Positions 14,644-26,365 of a DNA stretch of 40,285 nucleotides are shown here, one piece after another (position 1 is the stretch's first letter; every line of letters starts with the position of its first letter). Both the position numbers and the translations under genes were made by a program. The notes beneath the pieces were generated by a model. It saw nothing but the letters and a program-made list of their open reading frames with translations, was not told the DNA's origin and searched no databases. This stretch comes from Gammaproteobacteria bacterium (GTDB lineage: Bacteria; Pseudomonadota; Gammaproteobacteria; Pseudomonadales; Azotimanducaceae): contig JABGVY010000058.1 of the NCBI GenBank assembly GCA_018645845.1, forward strand, positions 1 to 40,285, read 5' to 3'.

Positions 14644-17600
14644 CTATGCTGCTTTGACAAATACCCGATAGTGCCAGTTATCCAACAAGACTCGTCGACG
14701 CTGTTCTGCCTCCGACACGTTGATATCTTTGACGTGGCCGTAGCCTTTTATCATTTGTGGAATGCTGGCGATGTCAACCGCTGCGTCAAGGTTGTCTACC
14801 CCAAGCTTCTCAATGAGATCTTCGAGTGTCGTCAGATATTCTTCGATAAGACGACGCTCCGTTCTTCGTTCATCTGTGCGGCCGAAAAAGTCGAATGCTG
14901 TGGCGCGCAGAAATTTGAATTTCGCCAACAGCCCAAATGCAGGCAGCATCCAGCTACCGAGCGTAATTTTCTTCGGCAGCCCTGTAACTTTATCCCTAGG
15001 TGCAATAGCAGGAGGGGACAGATTAAACTCGAGCCGAAAATCACCTTCGAACTGCGCCGCAAGTTTGGCTTTAAATGCAGGGTCACTGTATAGCCGAGCC
15101 ACCTCGTATTCGTCCTTGTATGCCATCAGCTTGTAGAGGTTTTTAGCGACTGCCCGCGCTAACCGCTCCGAGGCCGGTTCAATCTCCAGCTCTTTCGTCC
15201 TGATCCGTTGCACAGCATCGTGAAACTTTTTCGCATAGGCGTCGTTCTGATAGCTGACCAGTTCATTACTGAAAAAGCTCAAAAGTTCATCGAGCGTTTC
15301 CGCCGTTTGCTCTTCAGGCATGACCTCGTCATTGGCAACTTCAAGGACTGCATTGAGGTTATGTGCAGCGCGTCTACCCCAGTCAAAGGCCTCGATGTTC
15401 CATTCGACTTTGACACCATTCAACTCAATCGCCTTGTGTATGGCGGCCTTTGAGACAGGAATCAAACCTTTTTGCCAGGCGTAACCCACCAGGAACAGAT
15501 TACTGCCGATGGAGTCCCCAAGGAGCCGGGTTGCGAGACTGGATGCGTCCAGGAACGTTGCATTCGAATTACCCAATCCATCAAGCAGCCTCGCCTCGAT
15601 CGAATCACTCGGATACTCAAGGTCGGGGTTCAATACAAAATCGCCCGTTATGGCTTTGTGTGTATTCAACACGGCATGAGTATGTTGTGACAGGGTATTC
15701 AATGCCTCATCGCCGCTGACCACCATGGCATCGCAGCCAATCAGGAGATCAGCGCCGCCAGCATTCAGCCGCGCAGAGTTAATATTTTCCGGTGATGTGG
15801 CGATACGAATATGCGTCATGACTGCGCCGCCCTTTTGAGCGAAGCCCAACTGATCAACAATCGATACACCCAGTTCGTCTATGTGAGAGGCCATTCCAAG
15901 CAACGCACCGATTGTGACAACACCGGTCCCGCCAACACCGCCAATCAGAATGCCGTAGCTCTCACCATCTGACAGGTCCGGTAATGTCGGCTCGGGTAAC
16001 AGCCGAAGCGCGTCAGGGACGTCGCCGATACCACGACCTTTCTTCAACGCTCCGCCATAAACCGTGACAAAACTAGGGCAGAACCCCTCGTTGCATGAAA
16101 AGTCCTTGTTACAGGACGACTGATCGATACTGCGTTTCTTGCCGAACGCAGTATCGATGGGCAGAACAGAAACACAGTTGGATTTAACACTGCAGTCGCC
16201 ACAACCTTCACAGACCCGATCGTTAATAAACATCCTTTTCGCCGGATCGGGAAACGTCCCGCGTTTGCGACGTCGGCGTTTCTCGGCGGCGCAGGTCTGG
16301 TCGTAAATGAGAATCGTCGTACCTGTTATCTGCCGAAGCTCACGTTGAACATAATCCAGATCAGAACGATGGCTGATGGTTACGCCCGGCGCGAACTGGC
16401 TCCGGTCATATTTGTCGGGCTCATCGGTCACTATGGCGATCCGTTTGACACCCTCGTTGTGAACCTGGTGGGATATCTGGGGGACCGTTAACGGACCGTC
16501 GACCGGCTGACCACCAGTCATCGCCACCGCATCGTTGAATAGGATTTTATAAGTGATATTGACACCCGCCGCCACTGCGGCACGGATCGCAATCGAGCCT
16601 GAATGATAGTAGGTACCATCACCCAACTGCTGAAAAATGTGATCAGTTTCGACAAAGGGTGCCTGACCAACCCAGGGAATACCTTCTCCGCCCATTTGGG
16701 TGGCATAACCAACATCCCGGTCCATCCAGTAGGCCATGAAGTGACAGCCAACACCGCCATTTGCCCGACTGCCTTCCGGAACCCTGGTCGATGTGTTGTG
16801 CGGACAACCAGAGCAGAAGTAAGGCATCCGGTTGATTTCCGCAGGTGGCCGATCAATCGCCTGCTGCTCTTTTTCCGCAAGGAATCGAAGACGCTGATCC
16901 ATGTCTTCTGACTGATGAAAGTAACCTATCCGCTTCGCAATGACCCTGGCGATCTTGTCAGCATGCAGGTCGCCAACATCATCAACGAGTAGTTCCCCTG
17001 TCTCATCATGACGACCGACGACTCTGGGTCTGCTCTCCATCGTATAACAGGTCCTTCGAATCGCATTCTCGATCTGCTCTCTTTTGTCCTCGATGACAAG
17101 AATCTCTTCCAGGCCTTCGGCAAACTCCCTGTAAGTTTCGTTATCAACGGGAAAAGGCATCGCGACTTTTAAAATTCTGACACCTAGCTGCTGCAGGCGA
17201 TTTTCATCAAGACCGAGTTCATTTAGAGCCTGCAGCGTATCGCGCCAGGTCTTACCCATTGCAGCAATGCCGAACCGTGCATTACCTGAATCATGGGTCA
17301 CGCGATTAAGCTTGTTGGCCCGCGCAAAGGCCACAGCTGCTGGAAGTTTGAATCGCCTGATGCGGTTTTCCTGATTGAACCACATGTCGCCATTTCGAGA
17401 ATTCACGCCATCTGCGGGAAACTCAAATTCCGGTATTTCAATTTTCAGGTCATCGTATCCGGCTCGAATTGATGCCGCGGTTTCGATAGTTTCGGGTAAG
17501 AGCTTGTACCCCAACCATGCCCCTGAAAATCTCGACATGGCAATCCCGTACAGCCCCATGTCCAGCACTTCCTGGATATCTGCCGGGTACAGAACAGGCA

Positions 17601-18102
17601 TTAACAGGTCTTCGAACAGTAGTTCCGAATGGTAGGCATCGACAGTCGATCGCATGGCGGGATCATCTCCTGCCAGCACGAGCACGCCACCATTTTTCGC
17701 GGTACCGTGATAGTTCGCCTGTCTGACGGCATCAAGACTTTGATCCAACCCAGGGCCTTTGCCATACCACATACCAAAGACACCGTCGTACCTGGCATCA
17801 TTGTGATAATGAACCTGTTGGGTACCCCATACTGCCGTTGCCGCCATATGTTCATTAACAGCTGGCCAGAAATTGATATGGTGAGATTCGAGGTGATCCT
17901 TGGCACGCCAGAGTTCTTGGTCGATTGTTGTCATCGGGGAGCCCCGATAACCTGAGACGAAACCTGCAGTATTGAGCCCCTGCGCCTCATCACGTCGCCG
18001 CTGAACCAACATCAGCCGGACCAGTGCCTGCGTACCCGTGACATAGATACGACCGTCATCAAATGTATAGCGATCGTCGAGTGTAACTGCCAGGTTGGTC
18101 AT
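14644..18102 (-). CDS. Fused indolepyruvate-type 2-oxoacid:ferredoxin oxidoreductase (IorAB-like)
   Basis: 1152 aa; TPP-region 'QQLGDGTYYHSG', Fe-S cysteine cluster 'NDRVCEGCGDCSVKSNC', gamma-domain 'GILIGGVGGTGVVTIGALLGMASH'. Confidence 0.92.
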   Translation of the reverse strand: MTNLAVTLDDRYTFDDGRIYVTGTQALVRLMLVQRRRDEAQGLNTAGFVSGYRGSPMTTIDQELWRAKDHLESHHINFWPAVNEHMAATAVWGTQQVHYHNDARYDGVFGMWYGKGPGLDQSLDAVRQANYHGTAKNGGVLVLAGDDPAMRSTVDAYHSELLFEDLLMPVLYPADIQEVLDMGLYGIAMSRFSGAWLGYKLLPETIETAASIRAGYDDLKIEIPEFEFPADGVNSRNGDMWFNQENRIRRFKLPAAVAFARANKLNRVTHDSGNARFGIAAMGKTWRDTLQALNELGLDENRLQQLGVRILKVAMPFPVDNETYREFAEGLEEILVIEDKREQIENAIRRTCYTMESRPRVVGRHDETGELLVDDVGDLHADKIARVIAKRIGYFHQSEDMDQRLRFLAEKEQQAIDRPPAEINRMPYFCSGCPHNTSTRVPEGSRANGGVGCHFMAYWMDRDVGYATQMGGEGIPWVGQAPFVETDHIFQQLGDGTYYHSGSIAIRAAVAAGVNITYKILFNDAVAMTGGQPVDGPLTVPQISHQVHNEGVKRIAIVTDEPDKYDRSQFAPGVTISHRSDLDYVQRELRQITGTTILIYDQTCAAEKRRRRKRGTFPDPAKRMFINDRVCEGCGDCSVKSNCVSVLPIDTAFGKKRSIDQSSCNKDFSCNEGFCPSFVTVYGGALKKGRGIGDVPDALRLLPEPTLPDLSDGESYGILIGGVGGTGVVTIGALLGMASHIDELGVSIVDQLGFAQKGGAVMTHIRIATSPENINSARLNAGGADLLIGCDAMVVSGDEALNTLSQHTHAVLNTHKAITGDFVLNPDLEYPSDSIEARLLDGLGNSNATFLDASSLATRLLGDSIGSNLFLVGYAWQKGLIPVSKAAIHKAIELNGVKVEWNIEAFDWGRRAAHNLNAVLEVANDEVMPEEQTAETLDELLSFFSNELVSYQNDAYAKKFHDAVQRIRTKELEIEPASERLARAVAKNLYKLMAYKDEYEVARLYSDPAFKAKLAAQFEGDFRLEFNLSPPAIAPRDKVTGLPKKITLGSWMLPAFGLLAKFKFLRATAFDFFGRTDERRTERRLIEEYLTTLEDLIEKLGVDNLDAAVDIASIPQMIKGYGHVKDINVSEAEQRRRVLLDNWHYRVFVKAA

Positions 18103-19809: not shown

Positions 19810-19963
19810 ACTGTCTTCTCCTATCTAATGCCACGCAGTATCCAGTAAAAACCACTTATTATCCGTTATCAATTCAAGAAGATCACAAGTCCTGACGGGC
19901 AGATATATCTTTGCCTTGCAGCGCCCGGATATGGTCAAATCCCCAATGAGAGAGCATGAATCT

Positions 19964-20989
19964 ATGATTGCCCCGGAATATTCAACAATCGGCCCCATCG
20001 GCACCGTCATTGCACAGACGTTGCAGGCTGAAGGTATTGATCCAGCGCCTTTGTTCAGCAAAGCCGGGATTGATGTCACAGGCCTTAGCGATCCCAGGGT
20101 AAGAATGCCTGCGGATTCCTTTAAAAAGCTGCTGGAGCTTATTGAAGAGACGAGTTCTGACCCGGCCATAGGGCTCACCATTGCCCGTTTCATCCACCCG
20201 ACCACGTTTTACTCCTTAGGTATTGCGATGTACTGCAGCGATACGCTTGGTCAGTACCTTGACCGATTCATCAAGTACTACCGGGTAGTAACCACCAATA
20301 ATCGCCTTGAGGGTAAAGTCGATGCTGATGGGATCTACCACCTAAGAGCTATCAGTTCGACCAATCAGACGTTCCCAGGATCACGCGAAGACGGTATCGC
20401 TTCATTTGTAACCACCATACTGCGACTTGCTTTGCATCACGAACTACCCCTCATCAGCGTCAAGCTTGCCAGACCAACACCGACGGGTGTCGAGGGCCTT
20501 TACGAGAAATTTTTTAGATGTAGCATTGAATTCAATGCTGAACACACTGAACTCGCCTTCCAAGCAGACATGCTCGAGGAAGAACTGACAAGCGCCAATC
20601 CGGAATTGGCGGAAATGTATGAACAACTCACCATCGAGTATCTCGACAAGATCGACCGGCTTGATTTTCCATCCCGGGTTACCAACGAACTCATCAGACT
20701 TTTGCCAACAGGAGTTTCTGCCAAAGAAAAAGTGGCCGAGGCGCTAAACATCAGCACACGCACGCTTTACAACAAGCTCGAAGCCAGCGGTACAACCTAT
20801 CGTCAGGTACTCGACACCACCAGACAACAGCTCGCCGAACAATATATTCATCAGGGCATTCCAATTTACGAGATCGCCTACCTGATTGGTTTTTCAGACA
20901 CCGCCAACTTTTCTCGAGCTTTTAAGAAATGGGCTGGTGTTTCACCGATGGGATATCGCAATTCGATTCTGTCCGAGACACAAGACTAG
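19964..20989 (+). CDS. AraC-family regulator (paralog 2)
   Basis: ORF open from 19916 (TTG), with ATGs at 19931/19946/19964; C-terminal HTH 'IYEIAYLIGFSDTANFSRAFKKWAGVSPMGYR'; exact start uncertain. Confidence 0.9.
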   Translation: MIAPEYSTIGPIGTVIAQTLQAEGIDPAPLFSKAGIDVTGLSDPRVRMPADSFKKLLELIEETSSDPAIGLTIARFIHPTTFYSLGIAMYCSDTLGQYLDRFIKYYRVVTTNNRLEGKVDADGIYHLRAISSTNQTFPGSREDGIASFVTTILRLALHHELPLISVKLARPTPTGVEGLYEKFFRCSIEFNAEHTELAFQADMLEEELTSANPELAEMYEQLTIEYLDKIDRLDFPSRVTNELIRLLPTGVSAKEKVAEALNISTRTLYNKLEASGTTYRQVLDTTRQQLAEQYIHQGIPIYEIAYLIGFSDTANFSRAFKKWAGVSPMGYRNSILSETQD

Positions 20990-21076: not shown

Positions 21077-22654
21077 ATGCCGCGCCCAACCGACGTATCA
21101 ATACATGATCCGCTCCACCAGAGCCCCGGCTATGCTGACCTTGTAATGCAAGGCTTGCGTCGTTGGCCTGATCGAGTGGCCGTAGTCGATGCAACAGGCT
21201 TAACTCTGACCTACGAGGCACTGGAGCAACGAATTTGGCAGTTTGCAGACGTTCTCGCTACCAACGGTTTACGAAAGGGGCAAGGACTGGCTCAGCTGGC
21301 CTCCAATCGAATCGATGGATTTGTCACCATGATCGCTGCCATGGTACTGGGAGCCAGATACACTCCGCTCCATCCCATGGGGTCTCTGGATGATCAAAGA
21401 TTCATCTTGAAGGACGCGGAGATCGCAATATTGGTTGTCGACACAATTGGTTTTGAGACAAGAGGTCGTGACCTGGTCGACAGTGCCCGGACCGTACTCA
21501 GTCTTGGCACGTGCGATTACGCTGCCGATTTAGTCGATATCGCAACGTCGGTGACTAACCCCGCACGATTGAACGCCTCCAGTCCAACTGATATTTGCTG
21601 GTTGACCTACACAGGTGGAACCACAGGTCAGCCAAAGGGTGTCATCCTGACCCAGGCCAATATGGCAGCGTCCTGCCTGATATCTGCTGCAGAATGGGAA
21701 TGGCCGGAGCAGATCAACTATCTAGCTTGTTCACCCATCAGCCATGCTGCCGGTTTTCTGGTCGCACCGACATTGTTGAAAGGCGGCACGATTACTTTGC
21801 TACCGGGATTTAACCCCGATAGAATCATCGAGCTGATCGAGGGCGGTATCAATACGCTGTTTCTAGTGCCAACGATGATTTATGCATTGCTGGATCATCC
21901 TGGAACGCAGGACGCTGATCTCTCAAATCTGGAGTTACTGGTCTATGCATCGGCGCCGATGTCGCCGCCGCGACTGCGAGATGCCTTACATCTTTTTGGC
22001 CCTGTGATGATGCAATGCTACGGCCAGACCGAGAATATTCACCTGACCGTGATGCGAAAATCTGAACACGATATTCTAAAGCAAGAGCGCTTCCTCTCAT
22101 GTGGTCGTGCACCTGCTGGTATGCAGACAGAAATCCTTAACGAAGATAACCTACCTGTTCCCGTCGGAGAAATCGCCGAGGTTTGCGCTCGCGGCCCTTC
22201 GGTCATGTCGGGCTATTGGAAACAGCCAGAGGCTACGCAACAGACACTAGATAACGGATGGTTACGTACCGGGGACCTCGGACGAAAGGATGAAGAAGGT
22301 TTCATCTACCTTGTCGACCGGGCCAAGGACATGATCATCTCTGGTGGTTTCAACGTTTATCCGAAAGAAGTTGAAAACGTACTCCACAGCCACCCTGCGG
22401 TCTCAAACAGTGCCGTCATTGGGGCTCCCGATGAAAAATGGGGTGAACGCGTTGTCGCCTTCGTCGTACGAAAAACCGGCGAAACTGGCAGCAGCGATGA
22501 TCTGATGGAACTGGTCAAGGACAAAAAGGGATCGGTACAGGTACCCAAAGAAATCCACTTTGTAAATGAACTACCTTTAACATCACTAGGTAAAATCGAT
22601 AAACAAGCCCTTCGTACCGGCTTTTGGCACAACCAGGAACGAATGGTAAATTGA
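21077..22654 (+). CDS. AMP-forming acyl/aryl-CoA synthetase
   Basis: 525 aa; 'LTYTGGTTGQPKGVILTQANM' P-loop; 'GWLRTGDLGRKDEEGFIYLVDRAKDMIISGGFNVYPKEVE'; C-terminal 'LPLTSLGKIDKQAL'. Confidence 0.95.
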   Translation: MPRPTDVSIHDPLHQSPGYADLVMQGLRRWPDRVAVVDATGLTLTYEALEQRIWQFADVLATNGLRKGQGLAQLASNRIDGFVTMIAAMVLGARYTPLHPMGSLDDQRFILKDAEIAILVVDTIGFETRGRDLVDSARTVLSLGTCDYAADLVDIATSVTNPARLNASSPTDICWLTYTGGTTGQPKGVILTQANMAASCLISAAEWEWPEQINYLACSPISHAAGFLVAPTLLKGGTITLLPGFNPDRIIELIEGGINTLFLVPTMIYALLDHPGTQDADLSNLELLVYASAPMSPPRLRDALHLFGPVMMQCYGQTENIHLTVMRKSEHDILKQERFLSCGRAPAGMQTEILNEDNLPVPVGEIAEVCARGPSVMSGYWKQPEATQQTLDNGWLRTGDLGRKDEEGFIYLVDRAKDMIISGGFNVYPKEVENVLHSHPAVSNSAVIGAPDEKWGERVVAFVVRKTGETGSSDDLMELVKDKKGSVQVPKEIHFVNELPLTSLGKIDKQALRTGFWHNQERMVN

Positions 22655-22680: not shown

Positions 22681-23631
22681 ATGAGCGATACAACGGTAAG
22701 CGAGGAAGAACAGGCAGAAATTGACCTGCTGGCTCGATTGGAGGCTGGAGAACTTATCGAGGATATGAATGAGTTAACACCTCGATATCGAGCAATCCTG
22801 CAACGCACTCTTGAGATCGCGGCTCAGAGCGAAGTAACCGTCTTGACCTGGGCCTACACCGCCTTCAGGGTTGCCCCGGATATCGGTGCCAAGGTCGCGT
22901 TATGTGGCACGATTCAGGACGAAGTTGGCCACGCCCACCAACAGGGCATGTTGTACGAACGATTCGGCGTCGATATGCAGAAGCTGGCATTTGAAGCGGA
23001 CCCACAAAAATACTGGTCCTTGCCTATCATGGAATTCCCCGTCAGAAACTACGCGGAGTTCGTTGTTGCCCAGGCATTCCTCGATCGTGCCGGTAGATTC
23101 ACCACCTGGGATCTGGAACTAAACTGCAGTTTTGCCCCCTACCGCCGTACGCTAAAGAAAATTAATTTCGAAGAGGCTTACCATTTTAGACATGGCGCCA
23201 TGTGGACTGAGTATTACCTCAACCAGACCGAGGAAACTAAAAAGCTCGTCAACGATGCGGTCCGATGGATCTTTCCCTGGGGTTATCACTGGTACGGCCG
23301 CCCCGATCACCTCAAAGGACACCCGGATCAATTGACCTATAAGGTACGCGCCTGGACCAACGACACCATGCGAGAGAAGTGGCTGAAATCAGCCGTCATA
23401 TTTGCCGATCGAATTGGTCTAAATGTACCTGCCCGATTTAATGAAGAGTCAGGTGACTACGAAATTACCGATATGCCCTACCCAATGACATTCGACTCAG
23501 ATGCCCACGACTGGGAATGGGAAGAAACCACCTGGGATCGTGCTATTGGCAACTTCAAGACCGGTGGCCCTATGCGACCAGCCTGCTATGAACGGCTGCA
23601 GCGCGAAGAGTGGGGTGCCAACCTGTGGTAA
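22681..23631 (+). CDS. paaA: PaaA-like catalytic subunit of a phenylacetyl-CoA epoxidase-type diiron oxygenase
   Basis: ATG 22681 preceded by GAGAAG; two ExxH motifs 'QDEVGHAHQQ' and 'NFEEAYHFRHG'; overall PaaA/PaaC four-helix pattern. Confidence 0.85.
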   Translation: MSDTTVSEEEQAEIDLLARLEAGELIEDMNELTPRYRAILQRTLEIAAQSEVTVLTWAYTAFRVAPDIGAKVALCGTIQDEVGHAHQQGMLYERFGVDMQKLAFEADPQKYWSLPIMEFPVRNYAEFVVAQAFLDRAGRFTTWDLELNCSFAPYRRTLKKINFEEAYHFRHGAMWTEYYLNQTEETKKLVNDAVRWIFPWGYHWYGRPDHLKGHPDQLTYKVRAWTNDTMREKWLKSAVIFADRIGLNVPARFNEESGDYEITDMPYPMTFDSDAHDWEWEETTWDRAIGNFKTGGPMRPACYERLQREEWGANLW

Positions 23632-23939
23632 CCATTGAAGAGGTCAAAGCTGCACTCGAAGAGGTCTACGACCCTCACATGAACGTCAGTCTGCTAGATA
23701 TGGGTATGGTTCGACGCGTGGAGGTCTCCGACCAAGGTAAGGTCGATATTGGTCTCGTCTTCCCCTGCGTCGGATGTCCAGCATGGGACCTGATTCAAAA
23801 TGATATCAAACAAACACTATCACCCATGGAAGGAGTAACACGGGTCAAGGTAAGTGTCGAATGGCATCACGCCTGGAATCGCGACGACATTAAACCGGAA
23901 GCACGATTGATCGCCAAGGAACATGGATATGTTATCTAA
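23625..23939 (+). CDS. paaD: PaaD N-terminal-like DUF59/MIP18 Fe-S assembly protein (no zinc ribbon)
   Basis: ORF from 23610; GTG 23625 overlaps the paaA stop; 'VKAALEEVYDPHMNVSLLDMGMVRRVEV...FPCVGCPAWDLIQNDIKQTL...WNRDDIKPEARLIAKEHGYVI' matches the PaaD N-domain up to the point where the zinc ribbon normally begins. Confidence 0.82.
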   Translation: MVTIEEVKAALEEVYDPHMNVSLLDMGMVRRVEVSDQGKVDIGLVFPCVGCPAWDLIQNDIKQTLSPMEGVTRVKVSVEWHHAWNRDDIKPEARLIAKEHGYVI

Positions 23940-23951
23940 GGAAATGCACGA

Positions 23952-24197
23952 ATGAGCATAGTAAGACGTAAAACAGCATTGCCAACAACCGAATACGACT
24001 ACTACGAGGTTTTTGCAAGAGAGAAGCTGGATGGTCCTCTGGCTCATATTGGTTGCTTAAGCGCACCGAATGCCGAAATGGCGACTTCCCAGGCTCGGTT
24101 GGTGTATTCCGAAAAACCATGGGTTGAAATGTGCATGGTCAGAAGGGATCAGGTCGTTCAGATTATTTCCGTCAATGAAATTCCTGGCGTTGCCTGA
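23952..24197 (+). CDS. paaB: PaaB-like small subunit
   Basis: 81 aa; 'YYEVFAREKLDGPLAHIGCLSAPNAEMATSQARLVYSEKPWVEMCMVRRDQV' PaaB-like. Confidence 0.78.
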   Translation: MSIVRRKTALPTTEYDYYEVFAREKLDGPLAHIGCLSAPNAEMATSQARLVYSEKPWVEMCMVRRDQVVQIISVNEIPGVA

Positions 24198-24200
24198 CCG

Positions 24201-24404
24201 ATGATCAGACCAGATATCGAAAATCAGAATCCATTTAATGAACGCTACGATGGTGAAATTGAATGTCCCTGGTGCAAATCGCGCAACACCCATGTCATCA
24301 GCCCATTCGGTGGAACCGTGTCTGAGGTTTCTATGCAATGTGGCGATTGTAAGAGCACATTTGGTTGGATGAAATGGCAGGGCAAGTTGCCTGACAGCGA
24401 ATAG
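24201..24404 (+). CDS. Stand-alone zinc-ribbon protein resembling the PaaD C-terminal domain
   Basis: 67 aa; 'CPWCKSRNTHVISPFGGTVSEVSMQCGDCKSTFGWMKW' parallels the PaaD tail pattern CPxC..T..S.FG.T.C....C..C...F.YFK. Confidence 0.75.
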   Translation: MIRPDIENQNPFNERYDGEIECPWCKSRNTHVISPFGGTVSEVSMQCGDCKSTFGWMKWQGKLPDSE

Positions 24405-24412
24405 GAGAGAAA

Positions 24413-25258
24413 ATGCTGGAACAGAACAGAGATAAATTTATCGCGGAGATGTTGTGCATAGCAGACACTGACTGGGTCCTCGGCCACTGGTACATAAAAG
24501 TCATGTTAAACGGCCGATCACTGACCGATTGCACGGCATTCGCCGGGATGGCACAGGACACCTTGGGTCACGCGCGCGCGTTATTCAGGTTTCTTGAAGA
24601 CGAAATGGACCTCCCAGAACATCAGCTAGAGTTCGGTCGAGGACCTAGCCAGATTCACGACATGGAAATGCTTTCGGCCCCACCCGAGAACTGGGGTGAT
24701 TTTCTTATAACTACCTTTATTGCCGAAGGTGCAATCTGGCAGATGTTGAACACATTTAGAGCCAGCGCACACCCAGGCGTAGCGGGTATGGTGACTCACT
24801 TTGGGAAAGAGCTCTATTTTCACAGGCTCGGCCTTGAAGGTTGGCTAAAATCGGCCACCGATGAAGCCAAACAGGATATGCGAGACGCAATGCAGACTCG
24901 TCTACCTACCGCACTACGCTGGTTTGACGATCAAGCTCGCTCTGACAGTGACGATCTGCGTTCCTCTGGGATTCGCTCATCCTCGGTCGCAGAGGCAAAA
25001 ATGGCTTTCATTGAGACTACGATATCAAAGCTTATGGCCGCTCTTGATATGGATGATACATCTAGCATCACACCCATCGAGCAGGTTGATTGGGATGCTT
25101 TAAGGCGCAAGACACGAGGCAGTGAGCTGCCTGCAACGCTTTGGGAGTTCATGATTCCTACGGATGAAGATACCGTCATTCTCAGGCGACCTCTCGCTGT
25201 CAGCGTCGACGACAATCTGGATCTGTTCGATCGCGAAGAATACTCTCAGGACGACTAA
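24413..25258 (+). CDS. paaC: PaaC-like subunit of the multicomponent oxygenase
   Basis: 281 aa; 'DTDWVLGHWYIKVMLNGRSLTDCTAFAGMAQDTLGHARALFRFLE', 'GKELYFHRLGLEGWL', follows PaaA/B/D-like genes. Confidence 0.82.
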   Translation: MLEQNRDKFIAEMLCIADTDWVLGHWYIKVMLNGRSLTDCTAFAGMAQDTLGHARALFRFLEDEMDLPEHQLEFGRGPSQIHDMEMLSAPPENWGDFLITTFIAEGAIWQMLNTFRASAHPGVAGMVTHFGKELYFHRLGLEGWLKSATDEAKQDMRDAMQTRLPTALRWFDDQARSDSDDLRSSGIRSSSVAEAKMAFIETTISKLMAALDMDDTSSITPIEQVDWDALRRKTRGSELPATLWEFMIPTDEDTVILRRPLAVSVDDNLDLFDREEYSQDD

Positions 25259-25315: not shown

Positions 25316-26365
25316 TTGAAACCCATGCTTCCTCAGAATTCTGGAACGTCAATCTCTTCAGCATCACTGCAAGGTGTCATCGACACCCTGCGTTCACTAA
25401 ATCTGAATATCGACGAGTTGCTGAGCGCAGCCAATATTGACCGTTCAAGCGGCCTGCAGGATCGTAGAATCCCGCAATCCACATTTAACAATCTGATTAA
25501 GAAAATCGCCCAAACGGACCAAGGCATGATGTTCGGCATCAAGTTCGCTGAAAATATTCACGCCACGACCTATGACTCGTTTGGTGTGCTGTTGGTTTCG
25601 TCAAAAAACCTGCGCGCTTTTTGTCACAACTCTGCCCGCTACTTTGCATTCGCAAATACGGGTCGGAAGTTGATCTTCGACGAATCCAAAGGGCTCGCAT
25701 CCCTCAGCTATACCGTAACCGATGGCGTAAGTCGCGACGAAAGGCATAACTTCGTTAATGCCTCCGGCTGGTTGGCGACCTGGCTCAAACTCATGAGAAT
25801 GGCAAGCCGTCCGAATTACACACCGGCCAAAGTGACTTTTAGGTCGGTGGAACCGGAGTGCGCCAATGAAATAGGTCACTACGTCAATTGCCCCGTTGAG
25901 TGGCAATCAGAATCTGATTCAATGTTCTTCAATCTAGATTTAGATTTCGAGACGCTCCTACCGGGTGGTAATGCGGAACTGGCGAGACGGAGCGAGAGTC
26001 TTGTGTTTAACCAAGTCAGGGAGCTCGGCGTTATTGACCCTGTTAACTCAGTCCGCATCGCGTTGTTCGAATTGCTGCCCAAAGGTGACACTTCATCCAA
26101 ATCAATTGCAGAGTATCTGGATATCAAAGAATCGACGCTGCAGCTAGGCTTAAAAAAATGCGGCACGAATCTCACAAGAGCAATCAGTGACACCCGACGA
26201 GAACTGGCTGAAGACTACATACCGCGCGTTGACCTAACAATCAATGAAGTGGCTTATATGCTGGGTTTCAGCGATTGCAGCAACTTCGCCCGAAGTTTTC
26301 GCCGTTGGACGGGCAAGTCGCCAACGGAATACCGCCAGCAGTTTCACAAAACCTTTAGGCACTAG
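25316..26365 (+). CDS. AraC-family regulator (paralog 3)
   Basis: 349 aa; C-terminal HTH 'INEVAYMLGFSDCSNFARSFRRWTGKSPTEYR'; same architecture as the other two. Confidence 0.9.
   Translation: MKPMLPQNSGTSISSASLQGVIDTLRSLNLNIDELLSAANIDRSSGLQDRRIPQSTFNNLIKKIAQTDQGMMFGIKFAENIHATTYDSFGVLLVSSKNLRAFCHNSARYFAFANTGRKLIFDESKGLASLSYTVTDGVSRDERHNFVNASGWLATWLKLMRMASRPNYTPAKVTFRSVEPECANEIGHYVNCPVEWQSESDSMFFNLDLDFETLLPGGNAELARRSESLVFNQVRELGVIDPVNSVRIALFELLPKGDTSSKSIAEYLDIKESTLQLGLKKCGTNLTRAISDTRRELAEDYIPRVDLTINEVAYMLGFSDCSNFARSFRRWTGKSPTEYRQQFHKTFRH

Follow-up and report, generated by a model that had tools for sequence, protein, structure and literature searches.

The analysed stretch of DNA (hereinafter the window; 40,285 nucleotides from a gammaproteobacterium) encodes the two domains of PaaD as separate proteins, a stand-alone DUF59/MIP18-like protein (hereinafter DN) and a stand-alone zinc ribbon (ZR), the genes of which flank the gene for a PaaB-like subunit. 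They belong to a cluster of tightly spaced genes on the plus strand in the order acyl-CoA ligase–A–DN–B–ZR–C, where A, B and C are homologs of PaaA, PaaB and PaaC (Table 1). The two PaaD-like ORFs and their unusual placement were pointed out in the initial annotation and are confirmed here. The interpretation that we prefer, with a probability of roughly 0.7, is that the cluster encodes a diiron oxygenase of CoA thioesters together with DN and ZR as its maturation factor, and that these two proteins are ancestrally unfused and were fused once.

Table 1. Genes of the cluster and the adjacent regulators (positions in the window)
Feature	Coordinates	Strand	Profile matches and remarks
AraC-type regulator, upstream	19916..20989	+	PF12625, PF12833; conserved upstream in Halieaceae loci
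Acyl-CoA ligase (AMP-binding), cluster head	21077..22654	+	PF00501 E 7e-71; PF13193 E 3e-22
A, PaaA-like predicted catalytic diiron subunit	22681..23631	+	PF05138 E 5e-36
DN, stand-alone DUF59/MIP18-like protein, PaaD N-domain	23625..23939	+	PF01883 E 4e-19
B, PaaB-like predicted bridging subunit	23952..24197	+	PF06243 E 1e-8, 35 bits vs cut-off 27
ZR, stand-alone zinc ribbon, PaaD C-domain, CPWC...CGDC	24201..24404	+	PF23451 E 5e-14
C, PaaC-like predicted structural subunit	24413..25258	+	PF05138 E 1e-18
Second AraC-type regulator, directly downstream	25316..26365	+	PF12625, PF12833

Separate genes for the two domains of PaaD

Among the Pfam families, DN scores above the cut-off with PF01883 only and ZR (67 aa) with PF23451 only (Zn_ribbon_PaaD, 52 bits against a cut-off of 27), next to the two PF05138 proteins and one PF06243 protein of a PaaABC-type oxygenase. 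A profile–profile comparison aligns the window-type DUF59 family with columns 12-114 of fused PaaD (E 3e-25) and the ribbon family with columns 119-170 (E 3e-14), the two alignments jointly covering nearly the entire PaaD chain. These results bear out the proposed homology of the two ORFs with the halves of PaaD, including a clear profile similarity of the ribbon to the PaaD C-terminus. The four cysteines of the ribbon are invariant in 23 of 23 unfused sequences and also in fused PaaD. In a structural model computed for the fused PaaD of another genome, a DUF59 domain that matches 3lno and 3cq2 is connected to a three-stranded ribbon by a low-confidence linker (approximately residues 111-128). 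The fold predicted for the window ZR likewise consists of three strands, with a modest pLDDT of 72; comparison with solved structures yields no relevant match by sequence and no significant match by fold, and the weak fold matches include the zinc ribbons of NrdR and RNA polymerase II subunit 9.

The pair resembles PaaD (TIGR02159; PF01883 + PF23451) in the two domains themselves, the CPxC...CxxC pattern of the ribbon, the conserved Cys-Pro of DUF59 and the association with genes for A, B and C. Unlike the single chain of PaaD, DUF59 and the ribbon are encoded by two ORFs with B in between; furthermore, the window ribbon lacks the extra cysteine of the FGSTxCK motif, and the window DUF59 protein contains PCxGCP and DPH where PaaD has SGCP and DPE. 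Against the PaaD equivalog TIGR02159, the cut-off of which is 108 bits, DN reaches 57 and ZR 28 bits. The haloarchaeal models NF041868 and NF041869 are not reached either (62.7 vs 180 and 22.4 vs 100 bits, respectively), with locus L081 serving as the positive control (187.9 and 112.5 bits). By fold, DN belongs with SufT and other SUF-associated DUF59 proteins and with CIAO2/MIP18 (3lno, 1uwd, 2cu6). Those proteins function in general Fe-S assembly and are stand-alone, without a ribbon partner.

DN comprises 104 aa when translated from the GTG at 23625 and 109 aa from an alternative GTG at 23610. The former start overlaps the stop codon of A (GTGGTAA); given that the same overlap motif, TGTGGT(A/G)(A/G), is found at the A/DN junction in the 11 related loci examined as well as in the window, translational coupling of the two genes is suggested. 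C pairs with A in the mirrored A/C tree (see below) and has a residue other than Glu at the position of the ligand E72 (AQDTLGH). The ligase keeps its position in 10 Halieaceae loci, and the AraC-type regulator encoded upstream of it probably controls the cluster.

A scan of species genomes identified 12 loci with A proteins 82-85% identical to that of the window, in Luminiphilus, HTCC2080, Haliea, Halioglobus and other Halieaceae, all with the order A-DN-B-ZR-C. Four more genomes, from the window's own family (A 55-67% identical), have the identical order, and in a fifth, where the locus ends at a contig edge, ZR-C is visible; altogether, the window order is present in every complete locus of 16 related genomes. 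Synteny in relatives, on which the initial annotation had made its reading depend, is thus retained. Searches of 58 relatives of the genome and 369 genomes of the class detected canonical PaaA at 25-29% identity at best, or nothing. Where dS is measurable (not saturated), dN/dS lies at 0.016-0.060 in ZR and at 0.026-0.135 in DN, i.e., both genes are under purifying selection. Because of these low values and the recurrence of both the split and the gene order in complete loci of independent genomes, a chance ORF or an assembly error is ruled out as the source of the split. A full-length PaaD acting as a replacement elsewhere in the genome was considered as well and rejected: no other PaaD was found in the window genome (76% complete), and in six of the nine Halieaceae genomes with the split system, HTCC2080 included, a separate fused PaaD coexists with it.

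Distribution and origin of unfused PaaD

Across 399 genomes of the phylum, the PaaD ribbon has 70 matches, 68 of which reside in frames of 169-535 aa, a length that fits fused PaaD, and stand-alone ribbons are encoded only in the window (about 67-68 aa) and in one alphaproteobacterium (75 aa). Among 150 genomes of the family of G621, an alphaproteobacterium by inferred class, the only short stand-alone ribbon frame is the second ribbon of G621 itself. Stand-alone ribbons are uncommon in this phylum and recurrent elsewhere. One recurrent arrangement, A-DN-B-C-ZR, is found on six haloarchaeal plasmids (Haloterrigena, Haloarcula and Halalkalicoccus), on Agrobacterium plasmids, on a Thermus plasmid and in G621, which additionally has an ordinary fused paa locus. 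The ribbons of these clusters score above the Pfam cut-off where tested; several of the plasmid records list no ribbon gene, the gene tables being incomplete. The A-DN-B-C-ZR clusters belong to the clade of the window in the A, C and DN trees (with the exception of Thermus in the DN tree) and share with the window a separate DN between A and B and the lack of the lysine bridge discussed below, but their ribbon gene follows C. In five haloarchaeal loci of this type (L077:6112-6881, L078, L079, L088 and L089), the oxygenase genes additionally adjoin a gene for a stand-alone 2Fe-2S ferredoxin that resembles the C-terminal ferredoxin domain of PaaE, next to an acetyltransferase-like (GNAT) gene.

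The precedent for an unfused PaaD comes from family models of the second arrangement, A-B-C-DN-ZR, in haloarchaeal paa clusters (e.g., in Haloferax mediterranei), for which NCBIfam has separate models of PaaD and of a ribbon named 'PaaE' (NF041868 and NF041869). Like the window, these clusters combine an unfused DUF59 protein and ribbon with a PaaABC-type oxygenase and contain no PaaE-type reductase. They differ from it in gene order and in the presence of paaK nearby in Haloferax, keep the extra ribbon cysteine, DPE and the lysine bridge, and are sister to the fused clade, not to the window. In H. mediterranei, the DN and ZR genes lie side by side with an overlap of a single base, an arrangement from which a fusion could readily arise. 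DN and ZR occur together in 30 of the 30 complete unfused loci, several of which are from close relatives, and this co-occurrence establishes the two as a pair. In the literature searched, we found no description of a split PaaD in bacteria, nor of the bacterial gene order, the paralogous oxygenase clade or a single fusion; a 2026 survey describes the PAA configurations of archaea as incomplete, and the passages of it that we consulted do not discuss unfused PaaD (PMC13186573).

Two maximum-likelihood trees of A and C were constructed, one with 85 and one with 82 rows. A and C are paralogs, so that each serves as the root for the other, a rooting that relies on a distant paralog with long branches. 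The A and C halves mirror each other, with the haloarchaeal paa and fused systems on one side and the A-DN-B-C-ZR and window types on the other. All fused systems form a single clade (support 100/100), joined by the haloarchaeal A-B-C-DN-ZR systems, and the window-order clade is nested within the A-DN-B-C-ZR group (support 100/99-100/100). Constraining the unfused systems to a single clade is rejected, with p 0.0003 for PaaA and p 0.03 for PaaC. The DN tree, rooted with DUF59 proteins of the SUF type, reproduces this topology and leaves Thermus unplaced at the base; for DN alone, unfused proteins as one clade are not rejected (p 0.08). Sequence signatures show the same division: the extra ribbon cysteine (FGSTxC) is common only to fused and haloarchaeal paa ribbons, and the PCxxCP/DPH pattern of DN is confined to the A-DN-B-... 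clade, Thermus excepted.

With unfused pairs present elsewhere and all fused systems in one derived clade, the split is old, not the result of a recent fission, and the unfused state is probably ancestral, with a single fusion and with the placement of the ribbon gene before C as a later rearrangement. Of the two possibilities that the initial annotation left side by side, fission and an ancestral unfused state, the latter is thereby favored. Fission would mean that an ancestral fused PaaD was split at least twice, in the haloarchaeal paa clusters and in the window-containing clade, a scenario that we consider unlikely. Its appeal is that fused PaaD is the commonest form among the sampled bacteria and that two events suffice, against one for fusion, which is the entire parsimony margin as far as the splits are concerned. 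In addition, window-type ribbons retain a short LFG-like segment resembling the interdomain linker of PaaD, but such a segment is equally expected if the linker was derived from the N-terminus of the ribbon protein. What turns the argument is that the fused systems comprise one clade with unfused ones both as sister and as outgroup, that the DUF59 proteins of the outgroup come without a ribbon, and that fission would additionally require moving DN to its place between A and B; one fusion explains the same data.

Nature of the oxygenase

A retains all six diiron ligands, i.e., the equivalents of E42, E72, H75, D126, E155 and H158 of PaaA (ligand list from PMC4498308). The lysine bridge K68/E49, however, is missing (K68->T and E49->A), and it is absent across the window clade and present in fused and haloarchaeal paa systems. 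All five proteins, A, B, C, DN and ZR, score far below the cut-offs of the phenylacetyl-CoA epoxidase equivalogs (86 bits against 280 in the case of A). The PaaE reductase is encoded adjacently in 37 fused-type loci (three of them typed by frame length only) and in 0 of 30 unfused loci, a count that refers to the locus, as reductases may be encoded elsewhere in the genome. In the window genome, at 76% completeness, no protein passes the PaaE cut-off (best score 53 bits vs 421).

Given the missing lysine bridge, the lack of PaaE and the fused PaaD encoded elsewhere in the majority of the Halieaceae genomes with the split system, the window cluster appears to encode a second oxygenase of CoA esters, PaaA-like and equipped with a maturation pair of its own, as opposed to a phenylacetate epoxidase. 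The initial annotation was right about the halves of PaaD, with two amendments: the cluster should not be labeled a phenylacetyl-CoA epoxidase, and the additional fused PaaD of relatives such as HTCC2080 makes it a paralogous system. It is quite improbable that the cluster is nevertheless a genuine phenylacetyl-CoA epoxidase that differs only by a reshuffling of its accessory genes: the complete set of diiron ligands and the indolepyruvate-oxidoreductase-like protein encoded nearby in the window and its family would suit such an enzyme, but low scores of B and C as well as A, together with the three differences just listed, argue otherwise. The absence of a PaaE-type reductase from every unfused locus also invites the idea that the ribbon, with a four-cysteine CPxC...CxxC layout that could bind iron, is a rubredoxin-like electron carrier in place of PaaE and not a maturation factor. 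We regard this as very improbable. The same domain is present in PaaD of fused systems that have a complete PaaE, so the ribbon cannot be there to replace that reductase; moreover, the five haloarchaeal loci mentioned above already encode a separate 2Fe-2S ferredoxin, and the weak matches of the predicted three-stranded fold include zinc ribbons.

Genomic context provides some clues to the substrate of the proposed second oxygenase. In the window, a protein similar to indolepyruvate ferredoxin oxidoreductase (PF01558, DUF6537) is encoded near the cluster (14644-18102, minus strand), and its gene is conserved near split clusters in five genomes of the window's family, where a CoA-transferase and acyl-CoA dehydrogenases are also among the neighbors. 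The indolepyruvate-oxidoreductase-like protein presumably makes arylacetyl-CoA, and its proximity hints at an arylacetyl-CoA substrate. In the typed Halieaceae loci, the neighbors include a thiolase, dehydratase-like proteins and an OB protein of the ChsH2 type, which hints at further side-chain or beta-oxidation-like breakdown. In HTCC2080 and Halioglobus (L019:10646-13205), the genes after C encode the thiolase, the ChsH2-type OB/zinc protein and two more proteins, of which one is dehydratase-like; this gene set, of which the window contains none, recalls steroid side-chain aldolase modules.

Proposed maturation role and related loci

PaaD of the E. coli type is required in vivo and dispensable in vitro, and the insertion of iron into PaaE or PaaA has been proposed as its role, both of which are thus named as possible clients (PMC4498308, PMC9493321). 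The unfused loci keep DN and ZR while encoding no PaaE, so that the diiron subunit A appears to be the likelier client. Under the mechanism that we propose, A would be the catalytic subunit, B the bridge and C the structural subunit of an oxygenase that acts on CoA thioesters and, although related to phenylacetyl-CoA epoxidase, is different from it, and DN and ZR would constitute a two-protein maturation factor, the unfused equivalent of PaaD, the role of which is putative even in E. coli. DN would handle iron or an iron-sulfur precursor, in the manner of other DUF59 proteins, and ZR, as a zinc-bound structural element, would dock DN onto the A-C core, allowing the diiron site of A to be loaded or to stay assembled. 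Beyond the observed homology, gene order, conservation and tree, the binding of DN to ZR, their action on A and the maturation of iron are what we infer. In evolutionary terms, the bacterial paa lineage would have joined the DN and ZR genes once, giving rise to PaaD, and in the lineage of the window the ribbon gene would have moved from behind C to the front of it.

A broader version of this proposal, which we find doubtful in its full extent, holds that bacteria and archaea could share a large unnamed family of CoA-ester diiron oxygenases that do without PaaE and the lysine bridge and have substrates other than phenylacetyl-CoA, that DN and ZR could be the original iron chaperone dedicated to this family, and that the PCxGCP cysteines and the DPH histidine would form an iron transfer site absent from fused PaaD. 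Separate genes for the halves of PaaD make it possible to delete or mutate one half without the other. The tree, furthermore, provides a concrete case of a gene fusion yielding a textbook protein. The observations suggest that surveys expecting a fused PaaD and PaaE would call such systems incomplete or miss the ribbon.

In G025, a genome of the window's family, the ORF directly after a fused-clade A-B-C cluster is PaaE-like and contains a 2Fe-2S domain (L070:2637-5413). No PaaD was detected in the 12 kb of sequence that include this locus, and the single DUF59 match of G025 is a 182-aa frame on another contig; this is a system in which PaaD is missing or displaced. On an Alteromonas plasmid (L084:4926-7281), a PF05138-like protein occurs singly, with a radical SAM protein and a MaoC protein encoded after it, and similar lone proteins are encoded on plasmids of Tistrella and Rhodococcus jostii (L090 and L091); these represent another PF05138 type, which branches deeply. 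In the cluster of the Thermus plasmid (L074:9229-9608), two short ORFs between DN and C, 64 and 60 aa long, match the PaaB profile of the window clade (60 and 28 bits, respectively) and no Pfam family, suggesting that PaaB may be duplicated in this cluster.
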